A stretch of DNA of 64,000 nt. Origin: Phycisphaerae bacterium RAS2. GTDB lineage: Bacteria > Planctomycetota > Phycisphaerae > UBA1845 > UTPLA1. The position numbers were made by a program, and so were the translations under genes. Below are positions 19,241 to 38,384 of the stretch, piece by piece; positions within the stretch are counted from its first letter, which is position 1; each line of letters starts with the position of its first letter. The stretch lies in NCBI GenBank assembly GCA_007753915.1, contig CP036352.1, positions 3,349,306-3,413,305 of the forward strand, in the 5' to 3' direction. The notes under the pieces are model-generated. The model saw only the letters and a program-made list of their open reading frames with translations, was not told where the DNA came from and made no database searches.

Positions 19241-19582
19241 TTCAGTTTACAGGTTGGGGATGTGAATCCTAATCAGCGGCTTTGACCTCAACACACGGAC
19301 ATGAAATCCGTTGATCTAGTTGCCTAAGCCGGTTCGGCGACTACTGTTCGGAATGGCAAGAAATCTGCCTTGCGATTCGTTTGGCGAATTGCTTGCAGCG
19401 ACATTGTTCCTGCGGGGCGATGCCGCTGCGGCCTCGCTTCCGGAGGCTGTCCGAGCCGGGATCGTCGGCATGGTCCGGGCGTTCACCGGGCCGGACGGTA
19501 AAGGGGACGCACTTGCTCCATCAAGACCCCGCGTGCCCAATTTGGTCGAGTCGAGCGCTGGGGTTATTCTATCCGTGTAACC

Positions 19583-20323
19583 ATGTGCGGTCGCTACACA
19601 TTGCTGGCAGAAGCGAATGAACTCGCGGAGGAGTTCCAAGTCAGTGATGTTGCGCCGCTGGAGCCGCGGTACAACATCGCGCCAACCCAGGACGTGCCGG
19701 TCGTGCGCCTGGAAGGCGGGCCTGCCTTGCACGGCGTTTCCGCGCCGTCAAGCATGGCGGTAGTGCGGCAATCAGAGACCGGCGGTGCGCGGCGGGTGGA
19801 TATTCTTCGCTGGGGTTTGATTCCGCATTGGGCCAAAGATACATCCTTCGCTTATCGCACGATCAATGCGCGTGCCGAGACGGTGGCGACACAGCCTTCG
19901 TTTCGCGATGCCTTTCGCAAACGGCGGTGCATCGTTCCCGCGAGTGGATTCTTCGAGTGGCAGAAGCTGATAAAGGGCGGAAAAGAGATCAAGCAACCGC
20001 ACTACATACGCCGACGTGACGGCCGCCCCTTAGGACTGGCGGGTTTGTGGGACCGATGGGAAGGACCAGACGGCACCGTGATTGAGTCGTTCACGATCAT
20101 CACGACCGAGGCGAACGAGACGGTGCAGGCGTTGCATAACCGAATGCCAGTGATCCTTGACCCGCAGAACTATGACGTATGGCTGAATCCTGCAACAAAG
20201 GCTGAACGTCTTCAGTCGCTTCTTTCGCCCTGCCCGTCGGACTGGCTCGTAACATCCCCCGTCAGCAGGCAAGTGAACAATCCCCGCAACGACTATCCAG
20301 GCTGCCTCGACGAGTTGCCCTAA
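19583..20323 (+). CDS. yedK: SRAP-domain protein YedK/HMCES (abasic-site protection)
   Basis: 246 aa. Begins MCGRYTL, so Cys2 becomes the N-terminal catalytic residue that forms a thiazolidine crosslink with abasic sites in single-stranded DNA. Other family signatures are EPRYNIAPTQ, RWGLIPHWAKD, INARAETV, the catalytic ASGFFEWQK glutamate, and LHNRMPVIL with the histidine. Length is normal. It lies directly upstream of imuA-imuB-dnaE2 on the same strand, 111 bp away, which fits the frequent association of SRAP genes with SOS-type operons. A GC-rich inverted repeat in the gap may partly separate the transcripts. I found no convincing LexA box. Confidence 0.95.
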   Translation: MCGRYTLLAEANELAEEFQVSDVAPLEPRYNIAPTQDVPVVRLEGGPALHGVSAPSSMAVVRQSETGGARRVDILRWGLIPHWAKDTSFAYRTINARAETVATQPSFRDAFRKRRCIVPASGFFEWQKLIKGGKEIKQPHYIRRRDGRPLGLAGLWDRWEGPDGTVIESFTIITTEANETVQALHNRMPVILDPQNYDVWLNPATKAERLQSLLSPCPSDWLVTSPVSRQVNNPRNDYPGCLDELP

Positions 20324-20340
20324 CCCCCGCGTTGACAAGG

Positions 20341-20368
20341 GCCTGCCCTCGATACGCGATGGGCGGGC
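20341..20368 (+). terminator. Possible weak terminator or attenuator hairpin
   Basis: GCCTGCCC (20341-20348) can pair with GGGCGGGC (20361-20368), one G-U pair, followed by GTTTGTG rather than a clean T-run. It lies between yedK and imuA. A role is inferred from position only. Confidence 0.35.
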
Positions 20369-20434
20369 GTTTGTGCGCTTGCAATTCCCCGGAGGATTAC
20401 CCTAACATGTACCGAACTATTGGGAGCCGTGGCA

Positions 20435-21262
20435 ATGGGAATCGGCGGGCATGTCGATCTGCGCGAGTTGGCAGAGCGAATTCGAGCCATTGAACATCGT
20501 CACGATGTCGGCGTATCGCCGTGCTTTGTCGATGAGCCGGCGGCGGATCGCATTGCGACGAGCTGGGCGGAAATCGACGCGGAACTGGGCGGAGGGTTGC
20601 CCGCCGACGGTTTGCACGAATGGTTCGGGATGGAGGAAGCCGCCGGCCGACGATGGCTTCCGCCGCTATGCATTCTGACGCACCTGGCGTGGCAGGCGCT
20701 GGACCACCGTTCGTTGTCACCGTGGACGGTATGGATCGGAAAGAGTTGCCACCCGTATCCGCGCATTCTGATCCGTGGCGACGACCGTCGCTTGCTGGAG
20801 CGGTCGCTGTTCGTCGCGCCGCGCGATGTGACGACGCGGCTGTGGGCGATTGATCTGGCGCTGCGTTCGCCGCCGGTCGGATGCGTCATCGCGGACGGCA
20901 GCGCGTTGGATCGCGCGGCCACCCAGCGAATTCAACTGTTGGCCCGCAAGCAAACCAAGGCCGTGTTTGCCGCGCGTCCGACGAAGGAAATCAGCGAACT
21001 CTCTGCCGCGCAGACACGTTGGCGAGTGTGCATCGCACCCGCCGAGAAGGGAAAAGCAGCGGGCAGCGTAACGCCGCGATGGAAGGTTGAACTTCTGCGC
21101 TGCAAGGGAATGCGGCCCGTGAAAGTGCCTCGTGAATGGCGCTTGGAGTGGAATCGTGCCGAAGGCGCTGTCCATCTATCTGCCCGGCTGGCCGATCTGG
21201 CTGGCGCGCAGACACCGAGCCGACTCACCGGACCCGCACGTCGCCGACAGCAAACGGCCTGA
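20435..21262 (+). CDS. imuA: ImuA-type RecA-like mutasome accessory protein
   Basis: About 275 aa. The N-terminal part has a RecA-like context: AEIDAELGGGLPADGLHEWF resembles the segment before the ATPase fold, then LAWQALDHRS, TVWIGKSCHPYPRILI and RDVTTRLWAIDLALRSPPVG. ERSLFVAP and LLARKQTKAVFAARPTKE continue the RecA-like core, followed by WRVCIAP and WKVELLRCKG. Classical Walker A is degenerate, as is usual for ImuA. The protein partners ImuB and DnaE2 in error-prone translesion synthesis. The ATG at 20435 is preferred; a TTG at 20420 is an alternative. The 3' end overlaps imuB by 107 bp, implying coupling. Confidence 0.85.
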   Translation: MGIGGHVDLRELAERIRAIEHRHDVGVSPCFVDEPAADRIATSWAEIDAELGGGLPADGLHEWFGMEEAAGRRWLPPLCILTHLAWQALDHRSLSPWTVWIGKSCHPYPRILIRGDDRRLLERSLFVAPRDVTTRLWAIDLALRSPPVGCVIADGSALDRAATQRIQLLARKQTKAVFAARPTKEISELSAAQTRWRVCIAPAEKGKAAGSVTPRWKVELLRCKGMRPVKVPREWRLEWNRAEGAVHLSARLADLAGAQTPSRLTGPARRRQQTA

Positions 21263-22718
21263 TCGAGCCGCGTGGCTGCTGTGGACCGCGCAGCGCGGCG
21301 TGCGGCAGGTGGTTCACGGCTGCGAACAGGCGCGCGCGGCGGGCGTGCAACCGGGCATGTCGCTGGCTCATGCGAAAGCACTCTGCGCGGGGCTGCGCGT
21401 CCACGATCAGCTCGTAACACCCAACGAGGACAGCGCAGCGCTGAATCGGCTCGCACGTTGGCTGCTTCGATTCGCTCCGGTTGTTTCGCCGGATGAACCC
21501 GACGGGTTGATGCTCGACATCGCCGGTTGCGAGAGACTTTTCGGCGGCGAACGCGAGCATGTCCGGCAGATCGGCGAGGCCCTGCAACGCTGGGGGCTGC
21601 GTCCGAGCCTCGCGGTTGCGCCGACGTTTGCCTGTGCCTGGGCGGTGGCTCGTCACGGCGATTTGAAATTGAAATGGATCGCGGAGAATGCGATGCACGA
21701 GGCCCTCTCGCCGCTGCCAGTCCGCGCGTTGCGCGTCGATCCTCGGACGGTCGATGCGCTGGCCGATGTGGGGATCGAGCGGATTGAACATCTGCTTGGA
21801 ATGCCTCGTGATGAACTGGCAGCGCGGTTCGGCGCTGAATTGCTGCGCCGACTCGACCTGGCGACCGGCGCGATCGACGAAACCATCCGGACCGTCCGGC
21901 CCGCGCGATTGTATCAAGCATCGCACGCCTTCGACGGCCCCGTGCGGCGTCTTGAGATCATCGAAGCCACGTCGCGCGAGCTTTTGTCCAGGCTGTTGCA
22001 ATCGTTGCGCACCACCCATCGCGGCATCCGTGAATTGACCGTCGAGCTGCGCCGCGCGGACTGCGAGCCGCAATCCGTGTCGGTGCGATTGACTTATCCC
22101 AATCGGGATGCGGCTCATCTGTGGGCGCTGTTGTGGCGACGGCTGGAGCGCGCCCATCTGGGCTTCGGTGTGACGGAGATTATTTTACAAGCCGCACAGA
22201 CGGAGCGGATGAAAAACGAACAGGCGGTTTTTCTGCGTGAGGCCGTTCGCGAAGCGCCTGATCCACTCGCGTCGCTCGGCGAACTGGTGGATCGCCTTGT
22301 GGAGCGGCTCGGCAGCGGTGCGGTGACGCGCGTGCAACCGGCCGAATCGTATGTCCCCGAGCAGGCTTTCACGCAAGCGACCGTGCATGGCGTTGCGAGG
22401 CCAATTTCGTCTCTCGTTCGCGCTGAAGCATGTTGCCTCAATCCGGCCCATCGCCCCTCGCGGCTGCTGGATCGCCCCGAACCAATCCGAGTGATGTCGC
22501 TGGTGCCGGACGGCCCGCCGGTCTGGCTGGAGTGGCGAGGCCAAGTCGGTGAGATCGTCGCCAGCATCGGTCCGGAGCGAATTGTTTCCCCGTGGTGGAC
22601 AGGCCGTGCCGCACCGCCTCGTGATTATTACGAAGCGGAGGACGCACACGGCCGACAATTGTGGGTTTATCGCGACGGTCACACGGGGCAGTGGTTTGTT
22701 CATGGTCAATGGATATAG
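21156..22718 (+). CDS. imuB: ImuB, Y-family polymerase-like mutasome hub
   Basis: About 520 aa from the GTG at 21156 (PKALSIYLPGWPIWLARRH). It has the Y-family fold signatures: GVQPGMSLAHAKALC, FAPVVSPDEPDGLMLDIAGC and LFGGEREHVRQI, the helix-hairpin-helix (LADVGIERIEHLLGMPRDEL) and the little-finger region. The catalytic SxDE motif of active Y-polymerases is not present, as expected for ImuB, which acts as a scaffold that binds the beta clamp and recruits DnaE2. The C-terminus ends in RDYYEAEDAHGRQLWVYRDG, the usual ImuB tail. It overlaps imuA and is followed 15 bp later by dnaE2. Confidence 0.9.
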   Translation: MPKALSIYLPGWPIWLARRHRADSPDPHVADSKRPDRAAWLLWTAQRGVRQVVHGCEQARAAGVQPGMSLAHAKALCAGLRVHDQLVTPNEDSAALNRLARWLLRFAPVVSPDEPDGLMLDIAGCERLFGGEREHVRQIGEALQRWGLRPSLAVAPTFACAWAVARHGDLKLKWIAENAMHEALSPLPVRALRVDPRTVDALADVGIERIEHLLGMPRDELAARFGAELLRRLDLATGAIDETIRTVRPARLYQASHAFDGPVRRLEIIEATSRELLSRLLQSLRTTHRGIRELTVELRRADCEPQSVSVRLTYPNRDAAHLWALLWRRLERAHLGFGVTEIILQAAQTERMKNEQAVFLREAVREAPDPLASLGELVDRLVERLGSGAVTRVQPAESYVPEQAFTQATVHGVARPISSLVRAEACCLNPAHRPSRLLDRPEPIRVMSLVPDGPPVWLEWRGQVGEIVASIGPERIVSPWWTGRAAPPRDYYEAEDAHGRQLWVYRDGHTGQWFVHGQWI

Positions 22719-22733
22719 CGAAGGTCAATCCGC

Positions 22734-25700
22734 ATGCCCGATCCGGCTGACCCGAAAGTCCACGCCCACCCCTTCAAGCGCGCCGCGCTGAACGGAGCCG
22801 GCGCGGACCGGTCTGCCTACACGCCCTCGCTCACGGCCTATGCCGAGCTGACGGCAGCGAGCAATTACACGTTCCTGACGGGGGCCAGCCATCCGGATGA
22901 ATTGATCGCTCAAGCCGCGGCGCTGGGGCATCGTGCGATCGCGCTGACGGATTGCAATTCGCTGGCGGGTATCGTTCGCGCCCATGTCGCGGCCAAGGAT
23001 TCGGGCATTCCGTTTGTCGTCGGCTGCCGACTGCGCTTCGTCGAACCCGCCAGACTATCGCTCTTTGTGTATCCCACAAATCGCGCGGCCTACGGTCGGT
23101 TGTGCCGACTGCTCACGGTCGGCAAGCGCCGCGCGCCGAAGGGGCAATGCCATCTGTGGCTGGATGATTTGAGCGCCCACGCCGAGGGATTGCTCGCCGT
23201 GGCCTGGTTCGCCTCGCCGACCGACGCCGACGTGCTGGGAACCCTCACGCTGTTGCAACATTTGTTTGACGACGACCGGTTGTCTCTGGCGCTGGCTCGG
23301 CTCCACACGTCGAACGATTCGCCGTTTCAGGAGGCTGCGGTTTTGCTGTCGCGCGAGACCGGCGTGCCGTTGGTCGCGGTCAACGACGTTCATTATCACG
23401 TCCCGCAGCGCCGCGCTCTGAACGACGTGCTGACCTGCATCCGCCACGGCTGCACGCTGGATGAGTCGGGCTTTCGCCTGTTCGCCAACGCCGAGCGGCA
23501 CTTGAAATCGCCCGAAGAGATGGCGCAACTCTTCGCGGCGCATCCCGCGGCGCTCGCGCGCAGCGCCGTCATCGCCCGCCGCGCGGGCGGCTTCTCGCTG
23601 GATGAACTGCGGTACGAGTATCCGGACGAAATTTGTCCACCGGGTCTAACGCCGATGGAGCATCTTCGAGGATTGACTTGGAAGTGTGCTGATGAACGCT
23701 ATCCGCAAGGCGTGCCCGACAAAGTGCGCCGACAAGTCGAGCATGAATTCACGCTCATTGAAGAACTCAATTACGCGCCATACTTCCTGACGGTTCATGA
23801 CCTGGTGCGCTTCGCGCGGTCGCGCGGGATTCTCTGTCAGGGGCGCGGAGCGGCCGCGAATTCAGCCGTGTGTTTCTGTCTCGGCGTCACGTCGGTGGAC
23901 CCCGACCGGATCAACGTGCTGTTCGAGCGGTTCGTGAGCCGGGAGCGGGACGAGCCACCGGACATCGACATTGACTTTGAACACGAACGCCGTGAGGAGG
24001 TCATTCAATACATCTATGGTAAATACGGGCGCGACCGGGCGGGGCTGACGGCCGAGGTCATCACCTATCGCAGCCGCAGCGCCGTGCGCGACGTGGGCAA
24101 GGCGCTGGGCCTGTCGCTCGACGCGGTGGACCGCATCGCCAAGCGCGTGCATGACTGGCATGAAGACGGATTCACCGAGGACAAGGTTTCGACGCTCGGC
24201 ATGGATGCCGGCGATCCGCTGCTGAAGCTGTTTGTGAGGCTGGTGGATCAGATCGTCGGCTTCCCGCGTCACTTGTCGCAGCACGTCGGCGGCTTTGTTA
24301 TTTCGCGCGGCCCGCTCTGCGAACTTGTCCCCATCGAGAATGCGGCGATGGAAAACCGCACCGTCATCGAATGGGACAAGGACGACATCGAAGCGCTGGG
24401 AATGCTCAAAGTGGACGTGCTGGCGCTGGGAATGCTGACGTGCATCCGCAAAGGGCTGGAATTGATTGAGCGTCATCACAGCCGACCGCTGACGCTCGCA
24501 TCAATCCCTTCGGAAGATTCCGCCGTGTACGACATGATCTGCAAAGCCGACACGCTCGGCGTGTTTCAAATCGAATCGCGCGCGCAGATGACCATGCTCC
24601 CGCGCCTCAAGCCGCAGAATTTCTACGACCTTGTGATTGAGGTCGCCATTGTGCGCCCCGGCCCCATCATCGGCGACATGGTGCATCCGTATCTGCGGCG
24701 GCGCAACGGCGAGGAGCCGGTGATCTATCCCGACGAGAAGGTGGAGCGCGTGCTGGGTCGAACGCTGGGCGTGCCGCTGTTTCAGGAGCAGGCGATGTCG
24801 CTGGCCATCGTCGCGGCGGGTTTCACGCCGGGCGAGGCGGAGCAGCTTCGCCGCACGATCAGCGCGTGGAAGCACCGTGGCAAGGACGCCATCCCTCGTT
24901 ATCGTCGCCGTTTCATCAACGGCATGCTGGCCAACGGATACGAACGCAAATTCGCTGAGCAATGTTTCGAGCGACTCAAGGGATTCAGCGAATACGGGTT
25001 TCCCGAATCGCACTCGGCGAGCTTCGCGCTGCTCGTCTATGCGTCGGCGTGGATCAAGTGTTACTACCCGGCGGTCTTCGCGGCCGCCCTGCTGAACAGC
25101 CAGCCGATGGGGTTTTATGCTCCCGCGCAGATCATCCGCGACGCGCGCGATCACGGCGTCGAGGTTCGCCCTGTGGACGTGAACCGCAGCGACTGGGATT
25201 GCACGCTGGAGGAGTCCGGCCACACGGTGCGGCTGGGAATGAGAATGGTTCGTGGCCTGCGCGAAGTTGACGCTCGCGCGATTGCAGAGATCGTGCGGGC
25301 GCGCGGGCCGTTTGCGTCGATTGTGGATTTGTGGCGGGCCGTGGAGATTCCGACCGCAGCTCTTCAGCGACTCGCGCAGGCCGATGCATTCGGCTCGATG
25401 CAATTGGACCGCCAACAGGCACTCTGGACGGTTCAATCGCTTCGCGGCCGACCGCTGCCGTTGTTTGACGCCCCCTGGCGCGCGAGTGAATCGCAGGAAT
25501 GCAACGATTCGCTGCCGCCCGCGTCGCCGCCGCAGGAAGTCGTGCGCGACTATCGCGCGGTGGGTCTGTCACTCAAAGCGCACCCGATTTCATTCATGCG
25601 CGAAGCGTTGAACCGGCGACGGATACTCACCGCCGCGCAGATTCGAGACGAGCATGGCTGTGCTCACGGTAAATGGGCGACTGTCGCGGGCATCGTCTTG

Positions 25701-25952
25701 TTTCGACAACGGCCCGGCACTGCCAAAGGGATTATGTTTGTAACTTTGGAAGACGAGACCGGCCGCGCCGATTTGATCGTTCGACCGCATGTCTATCAGC
25801 AATTCGCCAACGCTGCCTTGTACGGCCGCGCGATCATCGCACGAGGCCGAGTCGAGCGCGACGGCTGCGTGGTGCATGTCTTGGTGCGCCACATTGAAGA
25901 CCTGTCGGCAGACCTTCACTCGCTGCCATTGATGTCGCGGGATTTTCATTGA
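22734..25952 (+). CDS. dnaE2: Error-prone DNA polymerase III alpha subunit DnaE2
   Basis: 1072 aa, normal for DnaE2. N-terminal PHP domain (AELTAASNYTFLTGASHPDE, ALTDCNSLAGIVRAH), the polymerase core with GRGAAANSAVCFCLGVTSVD and the catalytic PDIDIDFEHERREEV aspartates, FQIESRAQMTMLPRL, the finger region GFPESHSASFALLVYASAW, and a C-terminal OB fold (WATVAGIVLFRQRPGTAKGI). The C-terminus lacks the tau-binding extension of replicative DnaE1. Together with imuA and imuB it forms the standard mutasome cassette for damage-induced mutagenesis. Translation probably continues from imuB (15 bp gap). Regulation by an SOS repressor is inferred from family knowledge; no operator was identified. Confidence 0.95.
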   Translation: MPDPADPKVHAHPFKRAALNGAGADRSAYTPSLTAYAELTAASNYTFLTGASHPDELIAQAAALGHRAIALTDCNSLAGIVRAHVAAKDSGIPFVVGCRLRFVEPARLSLFVYPTNRAAYGRLCRLLTVGKRRAPKGQCHLWLDDLSAHAEGLLAVAWFASPTDADVLGTLTLLQHLFDDDRLSLALARLHTSNDSPFQEAAVLLSRETGVPLVAVNDVHYHVPQRRALNDVLTCIRHGCTLDESGFRLFANAERHLKSPEEMAQLFAAHPAALARSAVIARRAGGFSLDELRYEYPDEICPPGLTPMEHLRGLTWKCADERYPQGVPDKVRRQVEHEFTLIEELNYAPYFLTVHDLVRFARSRGILCQGRGAAANSAVCFCLGVTSVDPDRINVLFERFVSRERDEPPDIDIDFEHERREEVIQYIYGKYGRDRAGLTAEVITYRSRSAVRDVGKALGLSLDAVDRIAKRVHDWHEDGFTEDKVSTLGMDAGDPLLKLFVRLVDQIVGFPRHLSQHVGGFVISRGPLCELVPIENAAMENRTVIEWDKDDIEALGMLKVDVLALGMLTCIRKGLELIERHHSRPLTLASIPSEDSAVYDMICKADTLGVFQIESRAQMTMLPRLKPQNFYDLVIEVAIVRPGPIIGDMVHPYLRRRNGEEPVIYPDEKVERVLGRTLGVPLFQEQAMSLAIVAAGFTPGEAEQLRRTISAWKHRGKDAIPRYRRRFINGMLANGYERKFAEQCFERLKGFSEYGFPESHSASFALLVYASAWIKCYYPAVFAAALLNSQPMGFYAPAQIIRDARDHGVEVRPVDVNRSDWDCTLEESGHTVRLGMRMVRGLREVDARAIAEIVRARGPFASIVDLWRAVEIPTAALQRLAQADAFGSMQLDRQQALWTVQSLRGRPLPLFDAPWRASESQECNDSLPPASPPQEVVRDYRAVGLSLKAHPISFMREALNRRRILTAAQIRDEHGCAHGKWATVAGIVLFRQRPGTAKGIMFVTLEDETGRADLIVRPHVYQQFANAALYGRAIIARGRVERDGCVVHVLVRHIEDLSADLHSLPLMSRDFH

Positions 25953-26428
25953 ATGTAAACGCAGAAGATAGCCAAATGCTCAAGATCGCCGGTTCGCTAG
26001 AAGCCGTAAGGCTTCGATGACGGCCGAGCAACCCCACGGGTTCAGAGCAATTCTTTTCTTAATGCGATGTCTGCCAGTCGCCGGGCTTGTGCCGCCCAGC
26101 CAGTGGCCACTCTTCCGCCACTAGGGGCTGCGGTGCAGTGTGCGCTTCCGTGCGCCGCAAGTCACAAAGAGACGTGTTTATACAACGGGGATAGGGGGCA
26201 AAAAGATGGCGCCGTCATGCGCAAGACCGTTGCCCAACGGCGCGCGCGCGTCCGCAAAAATAGGGAGGGGGGGGGCTACTTTTTTCTCGCAAATTGACAG
26301 ACTGTTGGCATACAATCCTCGCGGCGTGGATCGTGCTCTGCGTGGTAGGTTGAAATCGATGTCTTACCCGACACGTAACAGTCACGTCGTGAAGTATGGC
26401 GTTTGACACAACTCCAAGGATGGAGACC
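25953..26428. other. Intergenic region upstream of the phage-like operon
   Basis: About 475 bp without a gene. It contains a perfect 6-bp hairpin with GTAA loop (26000-26015), a G-run (about 26267-26275) followed by a T-run, and AT-richer DNA close to the next gene. It marks the change from the chromosomal dnaE2 cassette to phage-type genes and could hold the left end of the island, but no copy of the tRNA-Arg 3' end is present. A TTGACA at 26293 has no suitable -10. Confidence 0.45.
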
Positions 26429-26962
26429 ATGAAGATCAAGGACCGGATCACGGGACTGAAGCGCATCAAGGCCGCGGACCTGCGGCCGCATCCCCAGAAC
26501 TGGCGCATCCACACGCAGGCGCAGCGCGAGGCATTGCAGGGCATTCTCTGCGAGGTCGGCTACGCCGATGCATTGATCGCACGCCAATTGCCGGACAAGA
26601 GCTATCAACTGCTCGATGGCCATCTCCGCGCCGAGACGACGCCGAACACCCGCGTGCCGGTGCTGGTCGTGGACTTGAATGATGAGGAGGCTGCGAAGCT
26701 GCTGGCCTCGCTCGATTCACTGGCTTCAATGGCCGGCAGCGACCCGGCGCAGTTGGATGCGCTGCTTGCCGGGTTGAAGACCGACAGCGCGGCCCTGTCA
26801 GCGATGTGGGGAGGCATGACGTCGAAGGTGGCCGAGGCGATCGCTCCGGCGGAGTTCAAGGAAATCGATGATTCCCTTGAAACAGCTTACTGCTGCCCGA
26901 AGTGCGGGTATCGGTGGAGCGGATCGCCGGGCGGGGCGGGTGATTCGGATGGAGATGCGTGA
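26429..26962 (+). CDS. ParB-like nuclease-domain protein (phage type)
   Basis: About 177 aa. The N-terminal ParB/sulfiredoxin-like fold shows LRPHPQNWRIHTQAQREALQ, CEVGYADALIARQLPD and the key DGHLRAE loop. A Leu/Ala-rich helical region follows, and the C-terminus has a zinc-ribbon half (YCCPKCGYRWSG). The ATG at 26429 is chosen because AAGGATGGAG lies just upstream and the homologous proteins I know begin MKIKDRI; an ATG at 26396 is possible. In phages and integrative elements such proteins precede DNA methyltransferase and terminase genes. The stop overlaps the next start (ATGA). Confidence 0.8.
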   Translation: MKIKDRITGLKRIKAADLRPHPQNWRIHTQAQREALQGILCEVGYADALIARQLPDKSYQLLDGHLRAETTPNTRVPVLVVDLNDEEAAKLLASLDSLASMAGSDPAQLDALLAGLKTDSAALSAMWGGMTSKVAEAIAPAEFKEIDDSLETAYCCPKCGYRWSGSPGGAGDSDGDA

Positions 26963-28485
26963 TGGCTGCGCGAATGGGTCAGACCAAGAAGAAGGTGAGC
27001 GGGGGTCAGCGCAAGCCACGCGCGTCGAAGGATGGGACACTAGGCGCGAACGACATTGCGCCTGCGCCGCGAAAACACACTCGTCGTGCTGCGCCGTCGC
27101 GCTCTGGCGAGCCCGCGAGGCGTTCAATCTCCGCTCCGTCGGCCAAGCCGCCCTACCGTGTGCCGTCGATGGCCGAGATCGCGGCGGTGCCGGACAGCGG
27201 CTATCGGGCCATCTCGCTCTTCGCCGGCTGCGGCGGCAGTTGCCTCGGCTACCGTATGGCGGGCGTTCGCGTGATCTGGGCCAACGAGTTCATTCCCGCT
27301 GCGCGGGAGACCTACGCCGCCAACCATCCCGGCGCGGTGATCGATGCGCGCGACATTCGAACGATCAAGCCGGAGGATGTGCTCGATGCGATCCAAATGC
27401 GCGCGGGCGAGTTGGACCTGCTGGATGGCTCGCCGCCGTGCGCCTCGTTCAGCACGGCCGGCAACCGCGCCGAGGACTGGGGCAAGGTCAAGAAGTACAG
27501 CGACACCCAGCAGCGCACCGATGACCTCTTCCACGAATACGCGCGCGTGCTAAAGGGGATCCAACCAAAGGTCTTCGTCGCCGAGAACGTCAGCGGGTTG
27601 GTCAAGGGAGTCGCCAAGGGCTACTACCTCGAAGTGCTGGCAGCGCTCAAGGCTTGTGGCTACCGCGTGGCCTCGCGGTTACTCGATGCGCAATGGCTCG
27701 GTGTGCCGCAGGCGCGCCAGCGGCTGATCTTCATCGGCGTGCGGAATGACTTGGGAATGGATCCCGTGTTCCCCAAACCTCTGCCCTATCGCTACAGCGT
27801 GCGCGAAGCGCTGCCGTGGATTGTGCGTGGCAAGTACGGCGCGAACTGGCGATATGCCGATGCGCCCAGCCCGACCGTCTCGGCGTCGATGGCGCGGAAT
27901 CCGGCGAACAACACGCAAGGACTGGAACTGGTCGAGGCGCTGCCCATTCCTTCGCTGACAAACGATTTGCGCGGCGGCGACACGCGACTGATCCACGATA
28001 CGCGCGGCAACCGGCCTGCGAAGGACTTCACCGATGGGCCCTGCCCGACGATCACCGTCGGCGTCGATGGCTGCAATTCGTATCACTATCAGGTCGTCAC
28101 GCCGCGCGAGTCAGGCGAACTCACTGTGCCGCACGTCGAATCCGAGAGCAACATCACCGGTTACGCCATCGGTCGCGAATGGGATCGCCTCGGCGCGGGC
28201 CAGAAGGGCAAGTACCTCAACTTCATTAAGCCACGCATCGACCGCCCCTGTCCGACCGTCACGCAGACCGGCGGCATCACCGGCGCAGCGAGCGTGGTCC
28301 ATCCGACCGAGCGGCGGAAGTTCAGCATCGCCGAACTCAAGCGCCTCTGCGGCTTCCCGGATGACTTTCAACTGACCGGCAGCTACGCCCAGCAATGGGA
28401 GCGGCTCGGGCGGGCTGTGCCGCCGGTGATGATGTCCCACATTGCCCGAGCCGTCCGGGATGGAATCCTATGCAAACTGAAGTAA
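26962..28485 (+). CDS. C5-cytosine DNA methyltransferase
   Basis: About 507 aa. After a basic, low-complexity N-terminus the C5-MTase motifs appear in order: I SLFAGCGGSCLGYRMAG, IV LDGSPPCASFS with the catalytic cysteine, VI AENVSGLVKG, VIII VPQARQRLIFIGVR, and after a long target-recognition region IX/X FSIAELKRLCGFPDDF and VPPVMMSHIARAV. The recognition site cannot be read from sequence. No restriction endonuclease lies nearby, so it is an orphan, phage-type enzyme, possibly for protection from host restriction. The start overlaps the ParB-like stop (ATGA) and the stop overlaps the next gene by up to 16 bp. Confidence 0.93.
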   Translation: MAARMGQTKKKVSGGQRKPRASKDGTLGANDIAPAPRKHTRRAAPSRSGEPARRSISAPSAKPPYRVPSMAEIAAVPDSGYRAISLFAGCGGSCLGYRMAGVRVIWANEFIPAARETYAANHPGAVIDARDIRTIKPEDVLDAIQMRAGELDLLDGSPPCASFSTAGNRAEDWGKVKKYSDTQQRTDDLFHEYARVLKGIQPKVFVAENVSGLVKGVAKGYYLEVLAALKACGYRVASRLLDAQWLGVPQARQRLIFIGVRNDLGMDPVFPKPLPYRYSVREALPWIVRGKYGANWRYADAPSPTVSASMARNPANNTQGLELVEALPIPSLTNDLRGGDTRLIHDTRGNRPAKDFTDGPCPTITVGVDGCNSYHYQVVTPRESGELTVPHVESESNITGYAIGREWDRLGAGQKGKYLNFIKPRIDRPCPTVTQTGGITGAASVVHPTERRKFSIAELKRLCGFPDDFQLTGSYAQQWERLGRAVPPVMMSHIARAVRDGILCKLK

Positions 28486-29321
28486 TGCCTATCACACAAG
28501 CGCCGCCAACGACTCCGCGCGCGTTCAGCGACAGCAACTCGACCGCGGGCGCTTCAGTCGAGCCGGCACGTTCACCCGAAGCGCCGCAGCGCAGCGACGT
28601 CACTCTTCCGGAGGCCGTCGATCACGTGATGGCTGATGGCAAATGGTCGTTCAACGAAGAAGTCGCCCGGGTCTTCGATGACATGCTGGCCCGGTCGATC
28701 CCGCAGTACGACGTGATGCGCAAGGCCGTGTTCGATGTCGGCTGCCGGTATGTCCAACCCGGGACGGCCATCGTGGACCTAGGCTGTTCGCGGGGTGAAG
28801 CGCTCGCGCCGTTCATCGACCGGTTCGGGGCGCTGAACCGCTTCCTCGGCATCGAGGTCTCGGCCCCGATGCTGGCGGCCTGCCGCCACCGGTTCAAGGG
28901 CTACATCGACTGCGGGGTGGTGGACATCCGCGACTTGGACCTTCGCAAGAGTTATCCACCGGTCGCGGCGAGCCTGACCCTGTGCGTGCTGACGCTCCAG
29001 TTCATCCCGATCGAACATCGTGCGCGGGTGCTGCGTGACATGTATAACCGGACGGTCAAGGGTGGCGCGGTGATCATCGTCGAGAAGGTGCTCGGCTCGT
29101 CGGCCGGGGTCGATGGCCTGTTGACCGAGGAGTATTACCGTCTCAAGGCCGCACACGGCTATTCGTGTGAGGAGATCGAACGCAAGAAGGCAGCGTTGGA
29201 GGGCGTGCTGGTGCCGGTGGCTGCCAAGTGGAATGAAGACTTGCTCCACAGCGCGGGCTTCGGTCAGGTGGAGTGCTTCTGGCGGTGGATGAACTTCGCG
29301 GCGTGGGTGGCGGTGAAGTGA
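28470..29321 (+). CDS. SAM-dependent methyltransferase, CmoA-like
   Basis: About 283 aa. Rossmann SAM-binding motif I is VQPGTAIVDLGCSRGEALAP; motif II region FLGIEVSAPMLAACRHRFKG; post-II VVDIRDLDLRKSYPPVAASL and TLQFIPIEHRARVLRDMYNR, with VKGGAVIIVEKVLGSS. The overall pattern and C-terminal helices resemble CmoA (carboxy-SAM synthase) and related tRNA-linked methyltransferases. Its place between a phage DNA methyltransferase and a terminase subunit suggests a phage role instead, perhaps nucleic-acid modification; that is inference. Starts at 28470 or 28485 are both inside the end of the previous gene; neither has a strong RBS. Confidence 0.8.
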   Translation: MQTEVMPITQAPPTTPRAFSDSNSTAGASVEPARSPEAPQRSDVTLPEAVDHVMADGKWSFNEEVARVFDDMLARSIPQYDVMRKAVFDVGCRYVQPGTAIVDLGCSRGEALAPFIDRFGALNRFLGIEVSAPMLAACRHRFKGYIDCGVVDIRDLDLRKSYPPVAASLTLCVLTLQFIPIEHRARVLRDMYNRTVKGGAVIIVEKVLGSSAGVDGLLTEEYYRLKAAHGYSCEEIERKKAALEGVLVPVAAKWNEDLLHSAGFGQVECFWRWMNFAAWVAVK

Positions 29322-29437
29322 GCGGACGCATTCAAGTAACACGGCGCACTCAAGCGATTCTGCGCAGTGTCTTACCGATCCGCCGCGAGGGGACACACCG
29401 CTATCGCGGGGCGCTTTACGCGGCCGATGGAGCCTGA
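29318..29437 (+). CDS. Small 39-codon ORF bridging methyltransferase and terminase genes
   Basis: A GTG at 29318 overlaps the stop of the methyltransferase, and the TGA at 29435-29437 ends 2 bp before the terminase ATG. It would encode a basic peptide, VSGRIQVTRRTQAILRSVLP followed by a 19-residue tail. The fit into an otherwise fully packed operon is the only support; there is no homology I recognise. Confidence 0.4.
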   Translation: MSGRIQVTRRTQAILRSVLPIRREGTHRYRGALYAADGA

Positions 29438-29439
29438 CC

Positions 29440-29991
29440 ATGCGCGGCCGCAAACCCATCCCGACGGCGATCAAGCGGGCGCGCGGCAATCCCGGCAAGC
29501 GGCCGTTGAACGACAACGAGCCGCAACCCGAGAAACGAATTCCGCCATGCCCGTCGTTCATCGATGCAGAAGCCAAGCGGCTTTGGAGTCAACTCGGCAA
29601 GTTATTGCTGGCCAACGGCGTACTTAGTGAGATGGACGGCCTTTCATTGGCCACATTGTGCCAGGCATGGAGCCGTTGGAAATTCGCAGAGGAACACATA
29701 CAGAAGTTTGGCCCGATCATTCTCTCGCCTGACAAGAAGTTCCCCATCCAGAGTCCCTATCTGGCGGTGGCTAACAAGTGCATGGAACAAATCAATAAGA
29801 TTTTGATTGAGTTCGGCATGACGCCTTCGAGTCGAAGTCGCATTGAGACATTACTCGATCAAGGCCCAAGCGACTTTGATGAGTTCCTCGCGGAGGGCCG
29901 AAGGATCAGGGCGAGTGTCGAACTGAAATGCAAGGAAAGAATGGCAATGGCGAATGAATTCCGGCAGGAGCAGAGCACCCACGCGGGCTGA
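29440..29991 (+). CDS. P27-family phage terminase small subunit
   Basis: 183 aa. Family features are the N-terminal RGRKPIPTAIKRARGNPGKR, followed by helical LWSQLGKLLLANGVLSEMD and ALCQAWSRWKFAEEHIQKFG, and SPYLAVANKCMEQINKILIE FGMTPSSR. The subunit recognises phage DNA for packaging and recruits the large ATPase/nuclease. No large terminase gene follows; the next DNA is a hairpin and a broken HD-domain gene, so the packaging module is truncated. It is translationally linked to the small ORF upstream. Confidence 0.9.
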   Translation: MRGRKPIPTAIKRARGNPGKRPLNDNEPQPEKRIPPCPSFIDAEAKRLWSQLGKLLLANGVLSEMDGLSLATLCQAWSRWKFAEEHIQKFGPIILSPDKKFPIQSPYLAVANKCMEQINKILIEFGMTPSSRSRIETLLDQGPSDFDEFLAEGRRIRASVELKCKERMAMANEFRQEQSTHAG

Positions 29992-33582: not shown

Positions 33583-33686
33583 TACTCCAGTTCCGTCGTG
33601 CTTTTCATTTGAAAGGTTGACCTTCCCCCCAGAAACTGATCCAGGTTCTGAGTTAGGATTGGGGCTTGGATCAAGGAGGAAGGGTC

Positions 33687-33965
33687 ATGAGCAGGAAGCG
33701 ATTCAAGGCGGAGGAGATCGTCAACAAGCTTCGTGAGGCGGATGTGTTGATTGCTCAGGGTCGATCGGTGGCGCAGGCGAGCAAGCAGATCGGCGTGGCA
33801 GAGCAGACGTATTACCGTTGGCGGAAGGAGTACGGCGGGTTGAAGGCTGACCAGGCGAAGCGGCTCAAGGAGCTGGAGCGAGAGAATGCCCGGCTGAAGC
33901 GGTTGGTGGCCGATGCGGAGTTGGACAAGGCGATCCTTCGGGAGGCGGCCCGCCCAAACTTCTAA
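33687..33965 (+). CDS. IS3-family transposase OrfA
   Basis: 92 aa. HTH segment MSRKRFKAEEIVNKLREADV followed by AQASKQIGVAEQTYYRWRKE, the DNA-binding region recognising the inverted repeats. The C-terminal half (AKRLKELERENARLKRLVAD AELDKAILREAA) is a leucine-zipper-like coiled coil for OrfA/OrfAB oligomerisation. ATG 33687 follows AAGGAGGAAGG. It ends NF-stop, just after the slippery heptamer. Confidence 0.93.
   Translation: MSRKRFKAEEIVNKLREADVLIAQGRSVAQASKQIGVAEQTYYRWRKEYGGLKADQAKRLKELERENARLKRLVADAELDKAILREAARPNF
33953..33959 (+). promoter_or_regulatory. Programmed -1 ribosomal frameshift site (C CCA AAC)
   Basis: The heptamer CCCAAAC lies in the phase C CCA AAC of orfA, two codons before its stop, matching X XXY YYZ. 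Slipping back one base continues as PKLLSPQRKRQVVEEVVEHL into orfB without a stop, giving the OrfAB transposase. Confidence 0.7.
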
Positions 33966-33985
33966 GCCCGCAGCGGAAGCGTCAG

Positions 33986-34879
33986 GTGGTCGAGGAGGTG
34001 GTGGAGCACCTGGGCATCTCCGAGCGGCGGGCGTGCAAGGCGCTGGGTCAGTCTCGCGCGACGCAGCGGTACTTACCGTTGGTTCATGAGGATGAGGACA
34101 AGTTGACGCAGCGGATCATCGAGCTGGCGGCGGTGTACGGTCGATACGGGACACCGCGGATCACCGGCTTGATCCGGAACGAAGGGATGCAGGTGAATCA
34201 CAAGCGGGTCGAGCGAATCTGGAAGGCCGCCGGGCTGAAGGTGCCGAAGAAGCAGCCGCGACGCGGTCGATTGTGGCTGAATGATGGTTCCTGCGTTCGG
34301 CTTCGGCCGGAGCACAAGGATCACGTCTGGGCGTATGACTTTGTGCAGGCGTGGACGCATGACGGCCGGCCGTTTCGGATGTTGACGCTGGTGGATGAGT
34401 ACACGCGGGAGTGCCTGGCGATTGACGTGGCGAGAAGGTTGCGATCGGATGATGTGCTGGAGCGGCTGGCGTGGTTGTTTGCGACGCGGGGTGTGCCGGG
34501 GCATCTGCGGAGCGACAATGGTCCGGAGTTCACGGCGAAGGTGGTTCGCGAGTGGCTGGCCCGAGTCGGCGTGAAGACGCTGTTCATCGAGCCGGGAAGC
34601 CCCTGGGAGAACGGCTACGTGGAGAGTTTTAACGGGAAGCTGAGCGATGAGTTGCTGAATGGCGAGATCTTCTACACGTTGAAAGAGGCGAAGGTCTTGA
34701 TTGAGCGCTGGCGGGTTCATTCCAACACGGTTCGGCCGCACAGTGCGTTGGGCTATCGGCCGCCGGCCCCTGAGGCCCGAATGAGCGCGCCGCTGTGGGC
34801 AGGCTCCGCTCCGTTCGCTCCGCTCACTGCGCTCCGCCCGCCCACAGCGTGTGCTGTGAACGGTGTTGGACTAACATAA
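33986..34879 (+). CDS. IS3-family transposase OrfB (rve integrase core)
   Basis: 297 aa from the nominal GTG at 33986; the true product is probably the OrfAB fusion, since the frame is open back to the slippery site. An HTH_21-type segment (YGRYGTPRITGLIRNEGMQV) precedes the integrase core: DFVQAWTHDGRPFRMLTLVD (first D), HLRSDNGPEFTAKVV (second D), PGSPWENGYVESFNGKLSDE (E). NTVRPHSALGYRPP is the usual C-terminal motif. The last 24 codons traverse a GC-rich inverted repeat (34791-34800 with 34840-34849) around CTCCGCT-like repeats and are likely a late extension. Confidence 0.93.
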   Translation: MVEEVVEHLGISERRACKALGQSRATQRYLPLVHEDEDKLTQRIIELAAVYGRYGTPRITGLIRNEGMQVNHKRVERIWKAAGLKVPKKQPRRGRLWLNDGSCVRLRPEHKDHVWAYDFVQAWTHDGRPFRMLTLVDEYTRECLAIDVARRLRSDDVLERLAWLFATRGVPGHLRSDNGPEFTAKVVREWLARVGVKTLFIEPGSPWENGYVESFNGKLSDELLNGEIFYTLKEAKVLIERWRVHSNTVRPHSALGYRPPAPEARMSAPLWAGSAPFAPLTALRPPTACAVNGVGLT

Positions 34880-34908
34880 CAGGTGGACTAAACCGTGGGG
34901 GAAGGTCA

Positions 34909-35907: not shown

Positions 35908-35982
35908 TCCTGCAGGCAAATACAACGCAATTACAACTCTGCGTTCCACTGTGTAACAATTTGAGTGCCCTATTCTGAGGGC

Positions 35983-36168
35983 ATGGAAACGCAACAGCTT
36001 TTTTCAATTCACGGTCTTTCCCTCGCCCTTCAACTTCCACGCATTTGGCTCGCAAATGAAGCCGACGCCGGGCGGATTCCTTGTCTTCGGATAGGGCGAC
36101 GTCGGTTATTCAACCTAGAAGCGGTTCGCCGCGTCCTTGCAGAGCTACGACTCCCAGAACAACGATGA
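35983..36168 (+). CDS. Small excisionase/HTH-like protein
   Basis: 61 aa starting METQQLFSIHGLSLALQLPR. The pattern LPRIWLANEADAGRIPCLRIGRRRLFNLEAV is that of MerR/Xis-type helix-turn-helix proteins (DNA-binding domain, excisionase family): a recognition helix, then GRRRLFN and a helix. On elements with tyrosine recombinases such proteins direct excision or regulate integrase. The following gene begins inside its 3' end in another frame (TTG 36137). Confidence 0.65.
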   Translation: METQQLFSIHGLSLALQLPRIWLANEADAGRIPCLRIGRRRLFNLEAVRRVLAELRLPEQR

Positions 36169-36595
36169 CTGTCGACGGACGCTGAAGGCGTTCTCGCGTT
36201 TCGATGAAACGCCCCATGAAGCGGTCATTGAATTACGCGATGGCCAATACCGGCTCGTCGGGAGCAAGTCCGATGCCAAGCAAGGTGACCGGCTGGCCGT
36301 TCTACGGGAGATCATCGGGAGCAACAGCGCAGGCATGACTTCAGAGGATGTTCGCGAGGCGTGGCCGGAGTCGGGGACTGTCCCCAAGCCGAGCATCCGT
36401 ACGATCCGAGGAGACTTTGCCAAAGGAGTTGCGGCGGGCTGGTTCAAGTCGAGCGGCACCGGCCACAGAAATGATCCCCTTCGATACTTCAACAATTCAA
36501 TTCCGGCAAGCACGACCTCTATAGGTGCCGGAATCGAATCGGATGGGGAGTTGTACGGGGACAGCGGCTTCGAATCAGGGGGCGAGGCCGCGTGA
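36137..36595 (+). CDS. Hypothetical island protein, possible winged-helix end of a larger protein
   Basis: 152 codons. No ATG is available in frame early on; a TTG at 36137 overlaps the preceding gene. LAVLREIIGSNSAGMTSEDVREAW followed by IRTIRGDFAKGVAAGWFKSS looks like a winged-helix, as in the C-terminal parts of primase/helicase ATPases of integrative elements. The rest of such a protein is absent, so this could be a remnant or a small independent regulator. 145 bp separate it from the integrase. Confidence 0.5.
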   Translation: MQSYDSQNNDDCRRTLKAFSRFDETPHEAVIELRDGQYRLVGSKSDAKQGDRLAVLREIIGSNSAGMTSEDVREAWPESGTVPKPSIRTIRGDFAKGVAAGWFKSSGTGHRNDPLRYFNNSIPASTTSIGAGIESDGELYGDSGFESGGEAA

Positions 36596-36740: not shown

Positions 36741-38384
36741 ATGGCGCGAATCTTCAGGCAGAGTTGGTCCAAGCGAATGTCCGACGGCACAATCCGGCGG
36801 GGCAAAGCCGCCAAGTGGTACATCGAGTACCGCGATGGCGACGGCATCCTTCGCAAGGCTGTCGGCTTCAAGGACAAGACCGCAACGACTCAACTCGCTG
36901 CCGAGTTGGAACGCAGGGCCGATCGGCAACAATCCGGCCTGCGTGATCGCTTCGAGGATCACCGCAAGCGCCCGCTGGCCGAGCATCTTGAGGACTGGCA
37001 GAACGACATCCTCCATCGTGGCCGGACGCAGCGACATGCTGACCTACTCTATGTCCGCGCCAAGAAACTCCTCGACGGGTGCAAGTTCGCGTTCTGGCCG
37101 GACATCACTCCCAGCGCCGTGCAGACGCAAATCACCAAGCTCAAGGACCGCGACGGCATCGGCACGCGGACCGCGAACTTCCACATTCAGGCGGTCCGGC
37201 AGTTTTGTCGGTGGATGGTTCAGGATGGCAGAGCGCCGGACAGTCCGCTTGCCGGATTGCGGCCGCAGACCATCACCGAGGAGCGCGAGCGGCGAGCCTT
37301 TGAAGTCGATGAACTGAGGCGGCTGATCGACGCGGCTGAGCATGGTGAGCCATGGCGCGGTATCTCAGGCCCGGAGAGAGCAATCCTCTACAAGGTAGCC
37401 GTTCAAACCGGCTTGCGAGCGAGCGAGTTGCGGAGCCTGAAAGTCGCGAGTTTCGATCTTGAGAGCGATCCGCCAATCGTGACTGTTACTGCCGTAAACT
37501 CAAAGCGGCGGCGAGAAGACACTTTGCCGATTCCGCAACAGCTTGCAGCGGACCTTCGGCACCACTTCGCCTCAAAACTGCCGGCTGCTGCGGCCTTCGC
37601 GATTCCTGCGTCCTACGACACAGCGGACTTGCTGCGGTCCGACCTTGCAAAGGCCCGTGCGGTTTGGCTCGATGCCGCGGAGGATGAAGAGGAGCGTCAA
37701 ACGCGAACGAAGTCATATTTCCTTCTACCGACCGACGGCGAAGGCCGCGTGCTGGACTTCCACGCCCTGCGGCACACATTCATCACCAACCTCGCCCGTG
37801 GTGGCGTGCATCCCAAGCTCGCCCAGGACCTCGCCCGTCACAGCGACATCAACCTTACGCTCTCACGCTATTCGCATACCAAGATTGGCGACTTGTCCGA
37901 GGCACTCTCCGCCCTGCCGGATATCTCCGCCCCACCAGCGGAGAAAGTCAGCCAACGGGCAACCGGAACACATGGAGCCGGACGGCCAGAACACCCGAGC
38001 GCATCAGCGAAGCAGGCCGCGCCGCGCGGACATCGACAACGGTCTGCGCTTACCCCTTTTCTTACCGGAATGGGTGACGCAACAGGTCGCGACATGACGG
38101 TGGCATGCGCTGCGACCCCTGGTGGAGCCAAGAAAACGTGTGTTGAAACGCGCCCGAGAGGATTCGAACCTCCGACCTGCGGTTTAGGAAACCGCTGCTC
38201 TATCCTGCTGAGCTACGGGCGCAGGAACCAACTGATTTCAACTTGTCTTATCCGCCATACTCACCGTTTGAACACATCTTATCCGGGGCAGGCCGCGGCG
38301 GGCCAGCCGTCGTCCGAAAAATGCGAGCCATGCGTTTTCGCCGCGATCCCGCGTGAATTCAGACATGCCGTGTTTGGCTGCTGA
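36741..38384 (+). CDS. Tyrosine recombinase (phage-type integrase)
   Basis: The frame has 547 codons; the recombinase proper is about 400. N-terminal Arm/core-binding domain: KWYIEYRDGDGILRKAVGFK, QAVRQFCRWMVQDGRAPDSP. Catalytic residues: R in TGLRASELRSL, HxxR in LDFHALRHTFITNLARGG, H in ARHSDINLTLSRY, and the Tyr of RYSHT. ATG 36741 follows AGAGGAGAA. The C-terminal part (from about 37950) is non-homologous and continues through the opposite-strand tRNA-Arg gene (RGFEPPTCGLGNRCSILLSY is the translated tRNA) to 38384. So integration at the tRNA 3' end set the stop codon. Confidence 0.92.
   Translation: MARIFRQSWSKRMSDGTIRRGKAAKWYIEYRDGDGILRKAVGFKDKTATTQLAAELERRADRQQSGLRDRFEDHRKRPLAEHLEDWQNDILHRGRTQRHADLLYVRAKKLLDGCKFAFWPDITPSAVQTQITKLKDRDGIGTRTANFHIQAVRQFCRWMVQDGRAPDSPLAGLRPQTITEERERRAFEVDELRRLIDAAEHGEPWRGISGPERAILYKVAVQTGLRASELRSLKVASFDLESDPPIVTVTAVNSKRRREDTLPIPQQLAADLRHHFASKLPAAAAFAIPASYDTADLLRSDLAKARAVWLDAAEDEEERQTRTKSYFLLPTDGEGRVLDFHALRHTFITNLARGGVHPKLAQDLARHSDINLTLSRYSHTKIGDLSEALSALPDISAPPAEKVSQRATGTHGAGRPEHPSASAKQAAPRGHRQRSALTPFLTGMGDATGRDMTVACAATPGGAKKTCVETRPRGFEPPTCGLGNRCSILLSYGRRNQLISTCLIRHTHRLNTSYPGQAAAGQPSSEKCEPCVFAAIPREFRHAVFGC
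38150..38222 (-). tRNA. tRNA-Arg (anticodon CCT)
   Basis: 73-nt cloverleaf on the minus strand: acceptor GCGCCCG / CGGGCGC, D arm GCTC-AGCAGGATA-GAGC, anticodon arm GCGGT-TTCCTAA-ACCGC (anticodon CCT at 34-36), T arm GGAGG-TTCGAAT-CCTCT. CCA is not encoded. Its 3' end faces the integrase, the usual attachment orientation for tRNA-targeting elements. Confidence 0.95.

Follow-up and report, generated by a model that had tools for sequence, protein, structure and literature searches.

The 64,000-nucleotide stretch of the Phycisphaerae bacterium RAS2 genome analysed here (the window; genome 3349306-3413305 of a single 4.32-Mb contig) contains, at positions 26429-29991, a compact module encoding a ParB-like protein, two methyltransferases and the small subunit of a phage terminase (TerS) without the large subunit (TerL). 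On balance, we consider this module to be the packaging/establishment end of a family of satellite-like islands integrated in tRNA genes. The islands themselves rather likely form a phage-satellite lineage similar to phage-inducible chromosomal islands (PICIs), whose packaging would rely on the TerL and capsid of a helper phage. Positions are given in window numbering unless marked as genome positions. The window copy is called W, the other copies in the RAS2 genome (G000) A, B and C, and the copy in a sister species (G001) D; families were assigned by Pfam, PHROG and PDB sequence searches, with E-values given per gene.

The module lies in islands inserted in tRNA genes

A DNA search finds the module four times in the genome, as W, A (genome 33832-37164), B (679172-682520) and C (2568194-2571632, minus strand), and the genome has exactly four PF05119 TerS genes, all of them in module copies. 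The genes flanking the module differ between copies because each module lies in a separate island inserted in a tRNA gene. Island A occupies a tRNA-Thr gene (41149 bp, 49-bp exact attachment (att) repeat), B a tRNA-Arg(tct) gene (38170 bp, 64-bp att repeat at 98% identity) and C a tRNA-Asn gene (39300 bp, 28-bp exact att repeat). Island D lies at A's tRNA-Thr site (33382 bp, 32-bp exact att repeat); its ends are ~90-95% identical to those of A and its centre is different. Island W, of ~60933 bp (60.9 kb), begins at attL, 22.7 kb before the window (genome 3326567-3326614), and has its attR, a 48-bp perfect repeat, at 38147-38194, with a tRNA-Arg (cct) gene found by tRNA scan as the integration target (38148-38223, minus strand); ~49 kb including cargo lie between attL and the module. 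In the sister species the sites of B and C are empty and contiguous; at the W site the tRNA-Arg gene was found and the left flank was not alignable.

In A, B and C the module is located near one island end, where the gene order is HNH, ParB-like, C5 methyltransferase, CmoA-like methyltransferase and TerS, the HNH gene being cut in W. The far end carries a tyrosine integrase beside the intact tRNA gene, with PF00589 matches in A, B, W and C and 96% identity to the integrase of A in D. The W integrase (36777-38384, plus strand; PF00589 3e-18; 96% identical to A, 63% to B) overlaps the tRNA gene with its 3' end. At this end, an AAA_25 protein is also recognised by Pfam in A and C; that of D is 92% identical to that of A. 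In the part of the island proteins that was scanned with Pfam, no relaxase or conjugation genes were found. A transposon-like module of ~4.8 kb, suggested by the DNA repeats, was dropped as a candidate once it emerged that 33-61 kb separate the att repeats at the tRNA genes, with their integrases, from the opposite ends. The operon of the preliminary description is a real unit apart from its 39-codon reading frame, but it does not stand by itself: it is part of a 61-kb island and has three more copies in the genome. Its gene order recurs in 4/4 other islands, all within one genus, and the proposed origin from a prophage or satellite was right in kind.

Genes of the module

The reading of open reading frames (ORFs) and the Pfam, PHROG and PDB searches agree with the coordinates, overlaps and families first proposed for the four long genes, all on the plus strand. 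The first (26429-26962; an alternative in-frame ATG at 26420 is possible) encodes a ParB-like (ParB/Srx-type) protein with a C-terminal CPKCG zinc-ribbon-like stretch, matching phrog_498 (6.6e-12) and phrog_620 (3.9e-9) and giving no Pfam match at E<=0.01. The W protein is 92-96% identical in A, B and C, and the ratio of nonsynonymous to synonymous substitution rates (dN/dS) is 0.09-0.26 over ten pairs. Its stop codon TGA (26960-26962) overlaps the ATG (26962) of the C5 cytosine DNA methyltransferase (26959-28485; PF00145 7e-56; dN/dS 0.07-0.14 over ten pairs), in which the four motifs FAGCGG, PPC, AENV and QxRxR are present in 5/5 copies. This gene overlaps at 28470-28485 with that for a CmoA-like S-adenosylmethionine methyltransferase of tRNA type (28470-29321; phrog_4752 5e-72; PDB CmoA 1.5e-34, with 4gek, 4iwn and 1im8 matched at E<=8e-33). 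The CmoA-like protein has matches in 83 phage records, all at <60% identity, and resembles genes of large-genome phages; protein scans of genome contigs and viral contigs confirmed no relatives.

TerS (29440-29991, with its ATG at 29440) is of the P27/PF05119 type (PF05119, Terminase_4, 5e-23; phrog_83 1e-44) and in W is a diverged allele. Its best named matches in a viral fold library are phage TerS proteins, while the PDB sequence search and fold search gave no significant match; in the predicted model the mean predicted local distance difference test score (pLDDT) is 75, with most of the first 29 residues <50. A 39-codon ORF had been placed in front of TerS (29318-29437, plus strand), its GTG at 29318 overlapping the CmoA-like stop codon TGA (29319-29321). 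We reject it as a gene, since the spacer between the CmoA-like and TerS genes is poorly conserved in A, B, C and D and ranks near the bottom of the module in conservation. The suggestion that the two methyltransferases constitute a domesticated epigenetic module is weak: one enzyme is of the CmoA/tRNA type, and every copy of the module belongs to an island whose opposite end carries an integrase.

TerS without TerL

As first noted, a large terminase subunit is lacking. TerL of either of two types was found in 0/5 islands (tblastn with two TerL references), as were portal, protease and capsid genes (0/5, tblastn with one reference each; lytic genes were not sought), and PF03354 TerL has no match anywhere in the genome. 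An absence of TerL from the whole genome was considered and dropped, as a Terminase_6 TerL exists outside the islands; phrog_2 is unspecific as a TerL probe and matched in 13/14 control genomes. Viral contigs that carry a related TerS have a P27-type TerL immediately after it in 34/38 cases, and relatives of the island TerS adjoin PF03354/PF20441 TerL. In three of the four exceptions, TerL was not found (L079) or lies ~2 kb (L084) or 4.1 kb (L099) further on; the fourth contig (L098) stops after 970 bases. A local deletion of TerL from W, with TerL retained in close relatives, is therefore rejected: 0/5 islands carry it, and only distant viral relatives have it downstream. In a sample of the phylum, the TerS profile matches at E<=0.001 in 29/392 genomes.

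TerS is under selection and diverges together with an upstream element in W

Purifying selection on TerS is strong in A, B, C and D, where its dN/dS (0.02-0.06) is the lowest of the module genes. The ~245 bp before the ParB-like gene are also highly conserved in these four islands, strikingly so for non-coding DNA, with 56-59 of 60 columns invariant per 60-column segment, compared to mostly 51-54 of 60 within the ParB-like gene, and a 200-bp probe from this element hits these four islands and nothing else in the two genomes. These islands have retained HNH, the upstream element and TerS together. In W, TerS and the upstream element have both diverged and the three genes between them have not: W TerS is identical to that of A at 29/30 and then 59/105 residues, with a synonymous divergence (dS) of 1.35-1.58 in pairs with W, versus 0.21-0.44 for the ParB-like, C5 and CmoA-like genes. 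A change of TerS together with its recognition site would look like this. A specific question about packaging thereby becomes testable, as joint divergence of TerS and its presumed site is seen in only one of the copies.

These data bear on an alternative that we regard as unlikely, though far from negligible, namely that these are ordinary integrase islands moved by generalised transduction, conjugative mobilisation or natural uptake, and that the TerS module derives from a prophage and has been retained chiefly because its genes protect DNA, TerS being a passenger or a decoy that disturbs phage packaging. Many islands use this integrase, as the same family is present in 71/114 genomes of the order at E<=1e-30. 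By blast, TerS occurs in just 1/11 annotated integrase neighbourhoods (13-40 kb each; in G003). The viral contigs with related TerS have a ParB-like match in 14/38 and an HNH-like match in 4/38, the former pointing to a phage gene order, and island A encodes an ArdC-type anti-restriction protein. On the other hand, the low dN/dS of TerS would be unexpected for a passenger, and the joint retention of HNH, upstream element and TerS in A, B, C and D likewise speaks against this alternative.

Comparing A with D, dS is 0.14 for the integrase, 0.16 for AAA_25, 0.21 for HNH, 0.23 for C5, 0.24 for TerS, 0.29 for ParB and 0.43 for the CmoA-like gene, and twelve chromosomal genes of the same species pair have dS of 0.29-0.82, with one at 1.16. 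Since the A-D values are mostly below the chromosomal ones, most of the module seems to have been exchanged more recently than the two species separated; the only exception is the CmoA-like gene.

Island W is a degenerate copy

To the preliminary description the window copy looked like an active unit, whereas W is the least intact of the five islands. Its HNH gene is reduced to a 25-residue fragment (whole in A, B, C and D), and its AAA_25 (RepA-like) gene, whole in A and D, to a truncated remnant (36137-36595, plus strand; 88% over 152 residues to A). W also has an excisionase-like helix-turn-helix (HTH) protein (35965-36168, plus strand; HTH_17 E 0.0022, below the curated cut-off) and an insertion sequence, which we take to be of the IS3 type (33618-34908, plus strand); a second copy of it, 99.5% identical, lies at genome 874860-876150, and island D has one at 93.6%. 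In the integrase region, homology to A begins at 36741. What may be left of the conserved upstream element, in diverged form, is located at 26225-26290 (plus strand); this assignment is weak, with an alignment score reached by 3/500 shuffles, and a whole-genome DNA search with the element gave no match at W. Further upstream, a 67-70 bp repeat at 19432-19501 (plus strand) belongs to the island left-end region and has a further copy beside attL at genome 3326779. With 61 kb, truncated HNH and replication genes, and diverged TerS and upstream site, W is a degenerate copy and probably a relic that has lost the ability to be packaged.

The decay of W (HNH and AAA_25 cut, insertion sequence, 61 kb) could suggest that all islands are decayed prophages, each of which lost TerL and the structural genes on its own, and that none moves at present. 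We find this very improbable: all five islands lack TerL, A, B, C and D have reading frames under purifying selection and exact or near-exact att repeats, cargo has been exchanged at one site (A vs D), and the sister species lacks an island at the B and C sites.

Cargo of the islands

In the part of the island ORFs that was scanned, the cargo families are non-phage. Island A carries PLD-helicase, DUF1156-type methylase, DUF499-type ATPase and SIR2-like defence genes, together with a chromate transporter and ArdC, and D has helicase and DUF499 proteins distantly similar to those of A. Island B encodes a molybdopterin oxidoreductase (1170 aa), a 4Fe-4S subunit, cytochromes b and c, NnrS and a MoaA-like enzyme, a set that would be nitrate-reductase-like. 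Annotations of narGH are widespread in the order UBA1845, probably that of RAS2, according to part of a published account (PMC11266412), and island B would place such a cluster on a mobile element. Island C has five proteins with caspase-type matches, one of them with a sulfatase-modifying-factor domain (genome 2540126-2564347), possibly an unrecognised defence or signalling locus. The cargo of W includes RND (ACR_tran) and outer-membrane efflux genes, whose metal specificity is presumed, and, at 19583-25952 (plus strand), genes for SRAP (PF02586) and an ImuB-like Y-family polymerase (PF00817/PF11799) and a third ORF (22734-25952), which we take to encode a DnaE2-like polymerase. This SOS mutagenesis set lies inside a mobile island.

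A separate capsid/TerL cluster outside island W

Before the window and 2.9 kb outside island W lies a capsid/TerL cluster (genome 3315027-3323694; L037:5028-13695), in the order TerL, portal, protease, phrog_1731, major head protein, adaptor, phrog_490, phrog_1017 and QueD-like. The cluster is syntenic in the sister species, and its head protein has matches in 90/114 genomes of the order (60/65 of good quality), mostly in single copy at ~60-78% identity (~36-42% in one family), with extra, weaker or broken copies in some genomes. Among the matches listed, the closest named relatives of the capsid gene (65-78%) are mostly metagenome-assembled genomes of Phycisphaerae, Phycisphaerales and Planctomycetota, the more distant ones including Proteobacteria. 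The core genes have dS like that of neighbouring genes, phrog_1017 being an outlier at 1.16, and dN/dS of the head protein is 0.04. These are vertically inherited capsid/TerL genes under purifying selection, as expected of a gene-transfer agent, and from its sequence the cluster looks like a domesticated or gene-transfer-agent-like system, a candidate in Phycisphaerae.

This resident cluster might be what packs the islands; it would then be a gene-transfer-agent-like relic that receives its TerS from them, and we judge this improbable. The vertical inheritance of the TerL, portal, protease and capsid genes would fit, as would the lack of TerS among the cluster proteins scanned, the island genes being the only PF05119 TerS genes in the genome. 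However, the TerL of the cluster is of the Terminase_6N/6C type rather than the PF03354/PF20441 type found beside relatives of the island TerS, the cluster extends through the order and the known islands are confined to one genus, and no tail genes were recognised in the RAS2 cluster. A two-part system, in which the host keeps the order-wide domesticated cluster and the mobile tRNA islands bring their own TerS and packaging site, so that entire 33-41 kb islands with their cargo (defence, respiration and the like) would be shipped preferentially over random DNA, is similarly a long shot.

A possible satellite-like transfer cycle

In the helper-dependent reading that we favour, an active helper phage would cause the island to excise, and the island would replicate where its AAA_25 gene is intact. 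HNH proteins of phages are involved in DNA cutting by terminase. TerS and the HNH nuclease would mark the DNA of the island, and the place where they do so would probably be the conserved ~245-bp stretch in front of the ParB-like gene. The TerL of the helper would then pack the island into an unshrunken ~40-kb head, with capsid and tail also provided by the helper, and the methyltransferase genes may shield the DNA or ready it for entry into the next host. The lengths of W, A, B, C and D are 33.4-60.9 kb; the better-preserved A-D, at 33-41 kb despite unrelated cargo, and the damaged W at 61 kb fit packing into such a head.

Several points weigh against this scheme. Excision, induction and packaging by a helper phage are all steps that we infer, and known satellites are much smaller, 6-18 kb in the account given in part of PMC11389934. 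The size argument is based on four islands. Neither protein comparison nor tblastn revealed AAA_25 in B; the Xis-like ORF matches HTH_17 below threshold only, and this match is also the sole candidate for a master regulator of the stl/alpA kind. The module is confined to one genus: close CmoA-like orthologues occur in 2/61 genomes searched, both of that genus, and the other 14 genomes with matches show weak, generic methyltransferase similarity only. In pairs with W, dN/dS of TerS is 0.21-0.24 at near-saturated dS. Finally, some TerS and C5 segments are as conserved as the upstream element (57-59 of 60), which may be a mere promoter or operator.

Comparison with known systems

In P27/HK97-type packaging modules (HNH, ParB/methyltransferase, TerS, TerL), TerS is homologous to that of the islands, with ParB-like matches in 14/38 and HNH-like matches in 4/38 contigs. 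They differ in having TerL directly downstream (34/38 viral contigs vs 0/5 islands), and where they have head genes the islands carry an integrase and cargo. Elements of another planctomycete family (in G494, G452 and G446) share an AAA_25-like protein and TerS in 4/4 loci and a ParB-methyltransferase-like protein in 3/4, but have a TerL-sized ORF directly after TerS in 4/4 (PF20441/PF03354 in the one scanned). Blast revealed no capsid homologue in them, with part of their ORFs family-scanned. These loci (L176-L179) and the viral contig L074 all have TerS and a TerL-type ORF with no capsid homologue nearby by blast; the ParB-methyltransferase-like protein is present in L177-L179 and L074, and in L074 an integrase directly follows TerL.

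The I55-type islands of Pseudomonas have a tyrosine integrase, sizes from <20 to >70 kb, direct repeats, defence genes and no recognised autonomous transfer genes, and I55 itself is moved by jumbo phages, as set out in part of PMC12595487. Large size, tyrosine integrase, direct repeats and defence genes are common to both, but I55-type islands reside at tmRNA and TerS is not described in that part of the source, whereas the RAS2-type islands are found at tRNA genes with TerS, HNH and a strongly conserved upstream element. A partial literature search, mostly of titles and the opening of abstracts, found no description of planctomycete islands of this kind, which is no proof of absence; the excerpted text of PMC7947584 mentions a planctomycete prophage TerL and nothing further. 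Among the 11 further integrase neighbourhoods of the order that were annotated, G003, from the same family, contains a 7.4-kb island in tRNA-Ser (L330:11867-19276) with a 26-bp repeat, a PF05119 TerS, DUF3987, HTH and integrase and no TerL, which by its gene content is a textbook small-satellite layout.

PICIs are outlined, in part of PMC6092414, as elements with an integrase by the att site, a replication gene, sometimes their own TerS and accessory or defence cargo, without structural genes. Like PICIs and the Staphylococcus aureus pathogenicity islands (SaPIs), the islands described here have a site-specific integrase and att repeats at a fixed chromosomal site, carry their own TerS (4/4 in RAS2, and also D), as some PICIs do, and combine defence cargo with an absence of matches to the TerL, portal, protease and capsid references. 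The TerL, portal and capsid of a complete prophage are likewise missing, as judged by references with part of the island ORFs scanned. The islands differ in size (33-61 kb vs about 12-15 kb), in the HNH and methyltransferase genes beside TerS and in their large metabolic cargo. Because they fall outside the PICI size range and their helper dependence is presumed, we call them satellite-like rather than PICIs. If this reading is correct, TerS-bearing satellite-like islands would extend to the Planctomycetota and to full-capsid size with metabolic cargo.

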